Shown: positions 2 to 51,480 of the stretch, one piece after another
Layout: every line of letters starts with the position of its first letter
Position numbering within the stretch: position 1 is the first letter of the stretch
DNA from: Acidobacteriota bacterium
GTDB lineage: Bacteria; Acidobacteriota; Polarisedimenticolia; J045
DNA length: 64,000 nucleotides
Assembly (NCBI GenBank): GCA_030949985.1
Contig: JAUZRX010000044.1
Span: 62,001 to 126,000 of the forward strand
Reading direction: 5' to 3'
The notes under the pieces: generated by a model
Told to the model about the DNA's origin: nothing
Seen by the model: the letters and a program-made list of their open reading frames with translations, nothing else
The model's database searches: none
Translations under genes and position numbers: made by a program

Positions 2-1846
2 GGCGCCTCGGAGCGGGAAGGCAACGCCGACAACCACTGTTCGGGAGGCCGCGGTCCCACCTCCGATGGTCGGCGCAAACCGGAGATCTTCGCCCCGGGC
101 TGTTCGACGGTCTCGGCGGCTTCGGGCGAGAGTTGCGGCACCCGCAGCCTGACCGGCACATCGATGGCCTCCCCCGCGGTGACCGGGGCGGCGACCCTGG
201 TCCGCGAGTACTTCACCGAAGGCTGGTATCCCAGCGGCGCCCCGGTGGCCGCCGATGCGCTGGTGCCTTCCGGGGCACTGATGAAGGCGGTGCTGATCAG
301 CGGGGCGATGGACATGACCGGCGTGGCCGGCTACCCCAGCGACCAGGAAGGGTGGGGGCGGGTCAACCTGGAGCGCTCCCTGTTCTTCGCCGGCGACAGC
401 CGCGGCCTGGTGGTGCTCGACGACCTGCGGCGCAGCGCGGGGCTGTCCACCGGAGAAGCGGCCACCTACCCCCTCGAGGTGGACGCCTCCGGCCAGCCGC
501 TGCGGATCACCCTGGTCTTCACCGAGCCCCCCGCCGAGCTGATGGCCGCCGAGGCCACGGTGAACAACCTCGACCTGAAGGTCACCGCTCCCGATGGGAC
601 GGTCTACTGGGGCAACCAGACCGACGGTAACGGCAACTCGGTTCCCGGAGGTACCGCCGACCCGATCAACAACCTCGAGCAGGTCCTCTTCGACTCTCCC
701 GCAGCAGGCTCCTGGACGGTGGAGGTGATCGCGGCCGACGTGGCGATCGGCCCGCAGGGCTTCGCCCTGGTGGCCACCGGCGGCGTCTCCCCGACCACGG
801 GCCCCCGGCTGACCTACGACGGCCACCGACTGCTCGATGACCCACCCCTGGGCGGCGGGGACGGCATCCTCGATCCGGGGGAAACCCTCCGCCTGCCCCT
901 GCAACTGGCCAATCGCGGCAACGAGGGAGCCACCCATGTGACCGGCGATTTGCGAGTCGACCGTGACGACTGGGCCCGCATCACCCTGCGCTCCGGACAG
1001 TGGCCGGACCTCGACCCCGGCGCCACGGCGGAAATGACCGCGCCCTACTACGAGTTGACCGTCGCTCCCGACGCCCCTTGCGGCCAGGTGCTGCACTTCA
1101 CCCAAAACACTCGATCGGCCGAGGCCGAGGCCCAGGAAAGCCGCTTTTCCATCGCCATCGGCAACGTGGAGCGGGACTACCCCGACGGCCCGCCCCTCGA
1201 CCTGCCCAGCTCGTTTTTCGGCGGCCTGGAATCGCCCCAGGACGTGATCGATGATGCCCGGGTGGGCGAGATCGACGTCACCGTGGACATCTCCCACGGG
1301 GATGTCGGCGAGTTGCTCGTCATGCTCGTCTCGCCGGCAGGCACCCAGGTCACCCTGCACAACCGGAGCCACGCCGGCGAGCAAGACCTCAAACTGCGCT
1401 ATGACCGGGACCGCCCGGCGGACGGCCCCGGCTCCCTCGACGACTTCAAGGGCGAGGGCGCCCAGGGCACCTGGACCCTGGTGATCAACGACAACCGGGA
1501 GAGCGCGGTGGCTCCGGGGAGGCTCCATGGCTGGACACTGCACCTCCGGGCCGACCGGGCTCTCGAGTGCTCGCCCCTCGACTGCGGCGATCCCGTGCCC
1601 CCTGAAACCTCCGGCCTGATGATCCGCCGGGACGGCGCCGACCTGCTCCACAGCTGGCAGGCCACGGCGGGCGCGTCGGGCTATCACCTACTGGAAAGCG
1701 GCACGGCCTCGATGGCGGAGGCGGTGCTCACCGGACGCACCCAGGGAGCCACCGAGTTCCGGCAGGGCGGCGGTGCAGGCGCCTTTCCCACCCTGCGCTT
1801 CTTCAAGGTCCGGGCGACGAACACCTGCAACTGGGAAGGCCCCTGA
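2..1846 (+). CDS. Secreted subtilisin-like serine protease (S8) with C-terminal P-domain, 5' truncated
   Basis: The reading frame is open from base 2, so the start codon and the catalytic Asp and His lie outside the window. The subtilase serine block GTSMASPAVTG is at visible residues 52-62, with the catalytic Ser codon at 161-163; just upstream 'RRKPEIFAPGCS' is typical of the strand before that block. A proprotein-convertase P-domain (jelly-roll) spans about residues 390-517, including 'VGEIDVTVDISHGDVGELLV' and 'GTWTLVINDN'. A final tail of about 95 residues with several cysteines looks fibronectin-III-like. In this family the enzyme is an exported endopeptidase and the P-domain stabilises or binds. 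The target is unknown. Family is certain; role is not. Confidence 0.9.
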   Translation, partial: GASEREGNADNHCSGGRGPTSDGRRKPEIFAPGCSTVSAASGESCGTRSLTGTSMASPAVTGAATLVREYFTEGWYPSGAPVAADALVPSGALMKAVLISGAMDMTGVAGYPSDQEGWGRVNLERSLFFAGDSRGLVVLDDLRRSAGLSTGEAATYPLEVDASGQPLRITLVFTEPPAELMAAEATVNNLDLKVTAPDGTVYWGNQTDGNGNSVPGGTADPINNLEQVLFDSPAAGSWTVEVIAADVAIGPQGFALVATGGVSPTTGPRLTYDGHRLLDDPPLGGGDGILDPGETLRLPLQLANRGNEGATHVTGDLRVDRDDWARITLRSGQWPDLDPGATAEMTAPYYELTVAPDAPCGQVLHFTQNTRSAEAEAQESRFSIAIGNVERDYPDGPPLDLPSSFFGGLESPQDVIDDARVGEIDVTVDISHGDVGELLVMLVSPAGTQVTLHNRSHAGEQDLKLRYDRDRPADGPGSLDDFKGEGAQGTWTLVINDNRESAVAPGRLHGWTLHLRADRALECSPLDCGDPVPPETSGLMIRRDGADLLHSWQATAGASGYHLLESGTASMAEAVLTGRTQGATEFRQGGGAGAFPTLRFFKVRATNTCNWEGP

Positions 1847-47584: not shown

Positions 47585-48604
47585 TCAGTCGCTGCCGAGC
47601 CACCGCCCCCAGTCGACGTTTTCGCCGATCTTGATGCCCAGCACCTCGCCATCGGCCGAAAGCAGGTAGCTCGATGGAGTCTCCCGGGCCATCAGAGCCT
47701 TGGAGATCGACCGGTCCTTGTCCAGCAGGTGCGGCCAGGGGTACTGGCCGATCATGCCGGGGACTTCCCGCGCCAGATAGGGGGAGTCCGCCCGGGCGAT
47801 GTCGATGATCAGCAGGTCGTCCGGTCGGGCCCGGGTGTACCAGTCCCGGAGCTTGGGCAGGGCCCGCTTGCAATGGGGACAGGTGGGCGACCAGTAGAAG
47901 AGAAGCGTCTTCTTGCCTTCCTGGCGCAGATCGGAAATCTTGCGCCAGGTGGTGCCATCGAGGAGGGTCCCCGCAAGGTCGGGCAACTTGCGGCCCAGCA
48001 GACGGTAGACCGGCCGCGAAGGAAGCGTGCCCAGGTTGGGCACCGGCTTGCCCGAGGCGGCCAACTCGAGCGCCCGGGCGATGGTCATACCGGCAGGACT
48101 GTTCTGCTGGACGTCACCACCACCCACCAGGCGCAGGACACCACCAGCGTCGATCAGGGCGAAGGCAGGGGTCTTGCGGATACCGAGGATGCGAGCGAGC
48201 TGTCCCCCGTCCTGGCGCGCCGGCAGGTCCGGCAGGCCCAGGGCGTCGAGGCGGGTGCGGATGCTCTCAGGGGCCTGGGAAGCAGCCAGGACCGCCACGG
48301 GAAAGACCACGGCCCCGGTGGCACGGGTCTTCTGCAGGTCCACCGCGCCGGTCAGGGCCGCCTCGGACAGGCCGTCCCCCGGGCGCCAGTAGGTCACCAG
48401 GACCGGACGCTTGCCCACCAGGGGAGCCAGATCCCGGCCCGCAGGCCCGCCCTGGCTGACGATCAGGCCCGCGGGCAGCGCATCGCCGGGGGCCACCATG
48501 GCCCGCTCTCCGTACTGGGCGAGACCGGGCAGGAAAAAAGCCGCGACCGCCAGGGCCGACAGCAGCCGGGTGGAAAACCTGGGGTTGGGGTGGGTTCGCT
48601 TCAT
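47585..48604 (-). CDS. Exported protein with two thioredoxin-fold domains (TlpA-like)
   Basis: 339 residues. A signal peptide ('LLSALAVAAFFLPGLAQY', about 14-31) is followed by two thioredoxin-like domains. The first (about 40-185) has lost its cysteines ('TYWRPGDGLSE' at 71-81 stands where CxxC should be) but keeps the cis-Pro loop 'KTPAFALIDAGG'. The second (about 200-335) has an active CPHC at 242-245 ('FYWSPTCPHCKRALPKL') and 'ETPSSYLLSADGEVLG'. It likely acts as a periplasmic thiol reductant. It is divergent from the RluA gene across 57 bases. Confidence 0.88.
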   Translation of the reverse strand: MKRTHPNPRFSTRLLSALAVAAFFLPGLAQYGERAMVAPGDALPAGLIVSQGGPAGRDLAPLVGKRPVLVTYWRPGDGLSEAALTGAVDLQKTRATGAVVFPVAVLAASQAPESIRTRLDALGLPDLPARQDGGQLARILGIRKTPAFALIDAGGVLRLVGGGDVQQNSPAGMTIARALELAASGKPVPNLGTLPSRPVYRLLGRKLPDLAGTLLDGTTWRKISDLRQEGKKTLLFYWSPTCPHCKRALPKLRDWYTRARPDDLLIIDIARADSPYLAREVPGMIGQYPWPHLLDKDRSISKALMARETPSSYLLSADGEVLGIKIGENVDWGRWLGSD

Positions 48605-48661
48605 GATCGGAGCATTATCCAGCATTCCCACGTCGCTCGCGAATCCGGTAACCTCTCCGGC

Positions 48662-50325: not shown

Positions 50326-50421
50326 CGGGAATCTCTCGGCGTGCCCGCTGGCATCCGGCCGACGCGGGACCCAACTTGGTCCTTGACCCCCCGGTTCCAG
50401 ACCGGGAGGCGGAGGTCCGGG

Positions 50422-51114
50422 ATGTCCCATCAGGAAGTCGAATTCCCCTGTCCGGCCTGTGGTACGGTCAACAGCATCGCCGAGGCGAAAGTTCCCGAAA
50501 GTGGCGAGATTCGCTGCGGACAGTGTGGCGAGACCGTGGCCCTGCACCCGGGGCCCGCGAAGACCCTCAGCGGCGGTCACCCGGTCCGGGGAAGTTCCCT
50601 GCCCCCGGCTCCCTCGAGCCTCACCGACACGCTGATTCGGGTCGAGGAGTACGCCGACGAAACCGTTTCCGGGGCCGCCGAGGATGTCTGCTGCCCCCAG
50701 TGCGGCCACCGTTTTCCGGTGGAGGAAGGCCGTGGCGGCGGCTCGACGGTGCTGGTGGTGGAAGACACCGATTTCTTCCTGCACCTGGCCACGGAGGTTC
50801 TCGGCCGGCGCTACCGCACCATCGGCGTGCGCACCGTCGCCGAAGCGCGGCAGGTGCTGGCCACCTCCCCCGTACACCTGGTCGTCCTGGACCTGACGCT
50901 CCCCGACGCCGAGGGCACGGAAGTGCTCCGGGCCCTGCCCCGGCCCGACATTCCCGTCCTGATCTACACCAGCCGAGACGAAACCTCGCTGCTGGGCCCG
51001 GAATGGCAGGCCCTTTCCTCCCTTGGCGCCAGTGACGTGATCCACAAGGGGATCAACATCGAAGACGCCCTGCTGCGCAAGGCGGAAGAGCTGCTCGCCC
51101 ACCAGCCGGTCTGA
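50422..51114 (+). CDS. Zinc-ribbon plus receiver-domain protein
   Basis: 230 residues. The N-terminal zinc ribbon has Cys10, Cys13, Cys32, Cys35 ('FPCPACGTVN', 'IRCGQCGETV'), as in MJ0042-type fingers. A linker with 'DVCCPQCGHRFP' supplies another Cys pair, then a receiver domain with 'LVVEDTDFFLHLA', phosphoacceptor Asp in 'LVVLDLTLPDAEG', 'LIYTSRDE' and 'VIHKGINIED'. No output domain follows. ATG 50422 is chosen for GGAGGT five bases upstream. It may be a single-domain regulator acting through protein contact. Converges with the Cys-rich peptide gene. Confidence 0.85.
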   Translation: MSHQEVEFPCPACGTVNSIAEAKVPESGEIRCGQCGETVALHPGPAKTLSGGHPVRGSSLPPAPSSLTDTLIRVEEYADETVSGAAEDVCCPQCGHRFPVEEGRGGGSTVLVVEDTDFFLHLATEVLGRRYRTIGVRTVAEARQVLATSPVHLVVLDLTLPDAEGTEVLRALPRPDIPVLIYTSRDETSLLGPEWQALSSLGASDVIHKGINIEDALLRKAEELLAHQPV

Positions 51115-51129
51115 CCCGGCCGACCGGGA

Positions 51130-51480
51130 TCAGGGCGCCGCGGGAGACTGGCTGCAATCGACCAGGCACTGGGCAAGAGCCGATTCGGCCTGATGCTCGC
51201 AGCGCGTGCGCGCGAGGTCCGCCCGGGAACGAGCCGACTGGTACGCCGTCTGGCAGCGCAACTGGTCGAGGAAAGACTGGGCCTGCTCGAGGCAGGCTTC
51301 CCGGTCGGCGGCCGCCTGGGCCAGGGCCTGTTGGTGAGCGTCCACGCACTGGGCCAGATCTTCGGCGTACTGCTGCTGGCAGAGTTGCTCGCACTCCCCG
51401 GCCGCCACCGCCAGGCCCACGAGCGACCATGCCAGGCTCGCGGTCAGAAGCAGGAATCCCGCATATTTTCGTAGTTTCAT
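51130..51480 (-). CDS. Small exported protein with symmetric eight-cysteine pattern
   Basis: 116 residues. Signal peptide 'YAGFLLLTASLAWSLVGLAV', cleavage near Ala27. The mature 89-residue chain is almost all helix-forming (Ala, Gln, Glu, Leu, Arg; no Gly or Pro between residues 29 and 109). Eight cysteines at 30, 34, 45, 63, 76, 94, 105 and 109 have spacings 4-11-18-13-18-11-4, a perfect palindrome. Each arm puts its cysteines on one helix face, so an antiparallel helical hairpin held by four disulfides (30-109, 34-105, 45-94, 63-76) is predicted. ATG 51480 has GGGGAGA close upstream. No family recognised. Confidence 0.75.
   Translation of the reverse strand: MKLRKYAGFLLLTASLAWSLVGLAVAAGECEQLCQQQYAEDLAQCVDAHQQALAQAAADREACLEQAQSFLDQLRCQTAYQSARSRADLARTRCEHQAESALAQCLVDCSQSPAAP

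Follow-up and report, generated by a model that had tools for sequence, protein, structure and literature searches.

Most known helical hairpins stapled by disulfide bonds are mitochondrial proteins or small peptides of eukaryotes, with two bonds, one nested within the other. The plant alpha-hairpinins (C1X3C2-Xn-C3X3C4) are antiparallel two-helix hairpins with nested Cys1-Cys4 and Cys2-Cys3 bonds, and their CX3C...CX3C scaffold serves antimicrobials and protease inhibitors (PMC7191063). Mitochondrial small Tim proteins, which occur in an oxidising compartment, have a helix-loop-helix fold with twin CX3C disulfides (PMC3759932), and FAM136A is a three-helix bundle whose two twin-CX3C motifs together contain four disulfides (PMC12557607). 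Cysteine-lined helices are also found in the Csp copper storage proteins, some of them periplasmic after TAT export, in which the reduced cysteines bind Cu(I) (PMC12510493).

Here we describe a protein encoded in a stretch of 64,000 nucleotides (the window) from an uncultured Acidobacteriota bacterium. It represents a previously undescribed family: exported helical hairpins with putative nested disulfides. Like the plant alpha-hairpinins, the window protein is an antiparallel helix-loop-helix according to AlphaFold2, with a CX3C in each helix. However, alpha-hairpinins are eukaryotic and have four cysteines in about 40 residues, whereas the window protein has eight in about 90 residues and a bacterial export signal. 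With its eight cysteines it fails the alpha-hairpinin motif XnC1X3C2XnC3X3C4Xn, where X is never Cys, and no sequence relation to the plant proteins was found. The twin CX3C (C30-x3-C34 and C105-x3-C109) is shared with the small Tims, but these have four conserved cysteines and two disulfides, while the family described here is bacterial and Sec-exported and has eight invariant cysteines. The small-Tim profile was absent from the Pfam hits of all 15 family members. FAM136A is similar in being helical, with CX3C motifs and four disulfides (predicted ones in the window protein), but its two twin-CX3C units in a three-helix bundle differ from a single mirror-symmetric ladder. Helices carrying cysteines are shared with Csp, which is a four-helix bundle and not a predicted two-helix hairpin with mirror-paired cysteines. 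The CHCH (twin CX9C) motif is absent, the window spacings being only CX3C, CX10C and CX17C. Searches of Pfam, NCBIfam, PADLOC and the PDB returned no named family above cut-off, and the statement of a preliminary description that no named family has this pattern thus holds for Pfam, NCBIfam and the PDB. In construction the family resembles an alpha-hairpinin or twin-CX3C protein that has been lengthened, yet it belongs to neither group.

The hairpin gene and its product

The reading frame extends from an ATG at 51480 to a stop codon at 51132-51130, and GGGGAGAG upstream of the ATG is a possible ribosome site (Table 1). The cysteines are at positions 30, 34, 45, 63, 76, 94, 105 and 109, with the mirror-symmetric spacing 4-11-18-13-18-11-4. 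Coordinates, length and cysteine positions had been given exactly in the preliminary description, and Gly and Pro are indeed missing from residues 29-109 of the sequence.

Reading of the sequence places signal peptide cleavage near AVA-A, without a lipobox or a twin-arginine motif. In the homologues, too, a hydrophobic leader precedes the first cysteine and mostly ends in A-x-A. The residue just before Cys30 is a Glu, and the window protein is therefore not a lipoprotein. The "peptide" of the earlier label is a loose term for a mature protein of about 90 residues.

Table 1. Features of the hairpin locus, in window positions.
Feature	Position	Strand	Basis
Protein with N-terminal zinc ribbon, second CxxC pair and response-regulator receiver domain	50341-51114	+	
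Group A eight-cysteine hairpin gene, 116 residues	51130-51480	-	Open frame, ATG, 14 further full-length homologues
Predicted Sec signal peptide, residues 1-26, MKLRKYAGFLLLTASLAWSLVGLAVA	51403-51480	-	Reading of the sequence
First helix, mature residues 2/3-40, with C30, C34, C45, C63	51283-51402	-	AlphaFold2
Turn, mature residues 41-43	51274-51282	-	AlphaFold2
Second helix, mature residues 44-85, with C76, C94, C105, C109	51148-51273	-	AlphaFold2
C-terminal tail	51133-51147	-	Alignment: S112 and P116 invariant in 15/15 members

The eight-cysteine family

Profile searches identified 15 full members, some of them from metagenome-assembled genomes, in 8 of the 12 genomes of one Acidobacteriota family. 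The same searches found no full member elsewhere in the class, nor in a phylum-wide sample of 396 genomes. The members are 24-49% identical to the window protein; a paralogue in the same genome (L002) is 28% identical and has the same ladder. Every member keeps the eight cysteines, with arms of exactly 4-11-18, and the spacing differs only between C63 and C76, where it is 12, 13 or 14. The symmetric spacing, proposed earlier as the property to check in homologues, is thus kept. Invariant residues other than cysteine include Asp41, Ala98, Ser112 and Pro116, and the tail usually has SPxxP at the extreme C-terminus. A definition of the family as 4-11-18-(12..14)-18-11-4 with a signal peptide and a C-terminal S-x3-P describes all 15 proteins. 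They are mostly acidic (net charge -1 to -20 in 14 of 15), and one (L011) has two cysteines beyond the eight.

The chance that the six inner cysteines are mirror-symmetric with the outer two fixed is 3.6e-5. This figure is post hoc, yet the reality of the pattern is settled because the homologues keep the ladder. Since the relatives retain the exact mirror-image cysteine pattern, we conclude that this is a real protein family.

For the window protein and its paralogues, no relatives were found in plasmids, phages or viral contigs. A six-cysteine relative (see below) had weak partial matches in Sinorhizobium; the query of the genome-contig scan was the sub-alignment of group B (defined below), and the range outside Acidobacteriota is poorly sampled. 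A homology-free scan of viral contigs for an eight-cysteine codon ladder gave at least 120 stretches. Those examined were low-complexity cysteine repeats or frames with stops, and none was a true eight-cysteine ladder.

Mirror-symmetric variants in the phylum

Variants were first listed with a filter on symmetry, and the same matches were then relisted without it. In the unfiltered listing, each exported match with at least six cysteines in the mature part was symmetric. A diverged paralogue in genome G006 (L054) has the spacing 4-29-14-29-4 and thus lacks C3 and C6, which are mirror partners. Exported six-cysteine proteins from other families of the phylum have the spacing 4-11-n-11-4 (n = 10, 11, 12, 14 or 16) or 4-7-11-7-4. 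L087 and L088 have additional cysteines flanking the ladder. The mature part of the exported L088 protein (G123:C117:2239-2580) contains 16 cysteines. Fourteen form a perfect mirror ladder, 4-7-4-7-11-4-11-4-11-7-4-7-4, with mirror sums that are all 97 (chance 4.6e-8), predicting seven nested disulfide pairs from the sequence. L235 and L242 also fit the mirror-ladder pattern. The latter (L242:1501-1704, G356) is exported and has four cysteines spaced 11-12-11, perhaps the smallest ladder of the kind.

A profile of the six-cysteine proteins recovers the eight-cysteine proteins with E-values down to 2e-6 per genome, which suggests that the two share descent; the common signal peptide and cysteine spacing add to the score.

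Predicted structure

AlphaFold2 predicted the mature window protein as one antiparallel hairpin, with a pLDDT of 95.3 from an alignment of eight sequences and 93.5 when given the single sequence. The first helix spans residues 3-40 with the alignment and 2-40 without, and the second 44-85; the turn is centred at 42, very near the axis about which the ladder is symmetric, 43.5. The high pLDDT is modest evidence, because AlphaFold2 predicts helical hairpins easily. Still, the structure that had been anticipated was obtained, and the fit of the nested cysteine pairs comes from the ideal-helix calculation below, not from distances in the model. Foldseek searches against the PDB and viral models returned generic long hairpins only, none at E <= 0.001. 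We also considered that one end of the rod might be conserved as an active end, but clustering at either end was not significant (p = 0.24).

An eleven-residue lattice

The cysteines of each arm are at offsets 0, 4, 15 and 33, which are 0, 4, 4 and 0 modulo 11. The preliminary description had placed these offsets on one face of an alpha helix; they are better described as hendecad positions. The cysteines of each CX3C-type variant likewise follow an 11-residue (hendecad) repeat, of which they occupy positions 0 and 4. The arm offsets are 0, 4, 15 and 33 in the eight-cysteine proteins, 0, 4 and 15 in the six-cysteine proteins, 0, 4 and 11 in L086, 0, 4, 11, 15, 22, 33 and 37 in L088, 0, 4 and 33 in L054, and 0 and 11 in L242. 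Only 0.4% of random arms of the eight-cysteine type have all offsets at 0 or 4 modulo 11.

In an ideal two-helix model with hendecad twist, all four nested pairs are together at disulfide distance; the heptad twist fails (rms 2.2 A). Among the 24 inter-arm pairings on ideal helices, the nested one has an rms of 0.0 A, the next best 1.8 A, and the others exceed 11 A. Within 0.4 A, however, the model also accommodates about 7% of random mirror-symmetric arms, and nested-pair geometry alone is therefore not unique to the observed spacings.

Lattice sites without cysteine are also constrained. At offset 11, unused in the eight-cysteine family, an invariant Asp in arm 1 is opposite an invariant Ala in arm 2, and the same offset carries a cysteine pair in L086 and L088. 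At offset 22 of arm 2, all 15 eight-cysteine members have Ala, Ser or Thr.

On balance, we favour a common design rule for exported hairpins, with cysteines only at hendecad positions 0 and 4, mirrored arms, and two to seven nested disulfides. Several Acidobacteriota protein families appear to be built on this lattice, with rungs gained, lost or shifted in pairs. A literature search for bacterial disulfide hairpins of hendecad or ladder type found none among the results listed, which is weak evidence given its partial journal coverage.

Genomic context

The window gene and four others form group A, which lies between the zinc-ribbon/response-regulator gene and a TPR-Zincin gene. The zinc-ribbon protein is kept beside the hairpin gene in five genomes. 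Most group B genes have an HDOD gene on one side and a divergent BNR/thrombospondin-type-3 gene on the other. Neither group is in an obvious operon, and no conserved operon partner was found. The suggestion that adjoining envelope and redox genes are informative is weak, as the neighbours are syntenic but not obviously co-functional. The redox gene intended there is likely the one at window positions 47585-48640 (-), about 2.5 kb from the hairpin gene; its Redoxin/thioredoxin-like product carries CPHC and, apparently, a signal peptide.

The divergent neighbour of group B at L075:8196-11291 (+) encodes about 1030 residues that include BNR repeats and calcium-binding repeats of thrombospondin type 3, and has homologues near group B genes in five other genomes. 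Two group B hairpin genes, L034 and L058, are in tandem (G003 contig 1, about 1547187-1548159), which is a local duplication.

Group B paralogues are preceded by a conserved leader of about 300 nt (L002:1861-2160 (-), L009, L035, L036, L037 and L039). Its elements are TATTTC-GGCCGTCAGG, GAGCTGCCCGGG and GGCCCC..GGGG..GGCGCAGGGG, and about 110-140 nt after GGCGCAGGGG it has CCCCTGCGCC, directly ahead of AGGAAAGGAGCCC-ATG. Because GGCGCAGGGG and CCCCTGCGCC are perfect reverse complements, the leader may be a structured regulatory RNA, or else contain paired binding sites for protein; the stem shows conservation but no covariation. An Rfam search of the leader gave nothing convincing. The leader is absent at the window gene.

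Probable disulfide formation and possible function

The genome of the window encodes an exported protein (L076:1480-2568 (-)) in which a SurA-like segment is fused to a DsbA-type thioredoxin with CPYC, as well as a second DsbA-family protein. Neither DsbB nor VKOR was detected by Pfam search of this genome. As judged from the sequence, disulfide formation in the window protein is likely, because of Sec export and the cysteine pairing signal. Nested pairing is favoured both by geometry and by the paired loss in L054.

In our opinion, the window protein is probably a soluble envelope hairpin that is exported by Sec and held as a hyperstable rod by four nested disulfides. Removal of the signal peptide after Sec export would leave a soluble envelope protein, folding as a single antiparallel helical hairpin of about 55 A. 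A DsbA-like enzyme would then probably oxidise the cysteines to C30-C109, C34-C105, C45-C94 and C63-C76. Because the arm cysteines are only at hendecad positions 0 and 4, these rungs would align on two helices that run almost straight and pack closely together. The unused rung sites nearest the base are occupied by mostly small residues, among them Ala and Asp. The oxidised product should be a hyperstable, protease-resistant rod. As to its role, we tentatively propose a rigid protein-binding or spacer element in the periplasm or at the cell surface, with the acidic surface and the SPxxP tail holding a partner.

A periplasmic chaperone or assembly factor, comparable to the mitochondrial small Tim proteins or FAM136A, appears unlikely. 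The twin CX3C motif of the outer cysteines does recall the small Tims (PMC3759932), but these have only two disulfides and assemble into hexameric rings. FAM136A has four disulfides (PMC12557607). One group B protein resembles the Pfam family DUF842, which we take to be the FAM136A family, but the match (E 0.007, 16.5 bits) is below the cut-off of 25.1, and such matches are confined to the two members of one genome.

Storage or transport of Cu(I) or another soft metal is quite unlikely. Reduced cysteines would bind the metal as in Csp, possibly in paired hairpins that form a four-helix bundle. Cysteine-lined helices and periplasmic Csp proteins exist (PMC12510493), the failure to find DsbB or VKOR would be in keeping with reduced cysteines, and a linear S-metal-S bridge would likewise favour mirror pairs. 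However, metal binding needs neither exact mirror symmetry nor strict 0/4 hendecad sites, and, the twin CX3C end aside, rungs spaced by 11 and 18 residues are too distant to form clusters. Moreover, the signal peptide has no twin-arginine motif, as opposed to TAT-exported Csp (PMC12510493), and no metal-binding family was matched in Pfam.

We consider it very unlikely that the protein is a secreted antimicrobial or enzyme inhibitor, the uses to which plants put the nested CX3C hairpin (PMC7191063). Some six-cysteine relatives are very basic, as might be expected in that case, but the eight-cysteine members are mostly acidic and encoded at two syntenic chromosomal sites. Furthermore, the neighbouring genes examined included none recognisable as an immunity, transporter or processing gene, and the phage and plasmid collections contained no relative. 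A chance origin of the symmetry in this one sequence has virtually no probability: the pattern was singled out after the fact, but its invariance in 15 homologues and the symmetry of several other architectures refute this idea.

The hyperstable, disulfide-stapled rod that we favour raises the specific question of how such bonds are made in an Acidobacteriota genome in which neither DsbB nor VKOR was detected. Bacterial ladders of four and seven pairs on an 11-residue lattice provide a simple, testable rule for very stable helical rods. This rule would be useful for protein design and for the annotation of small exported bacterial proteins that are unnamed in the databases searched.
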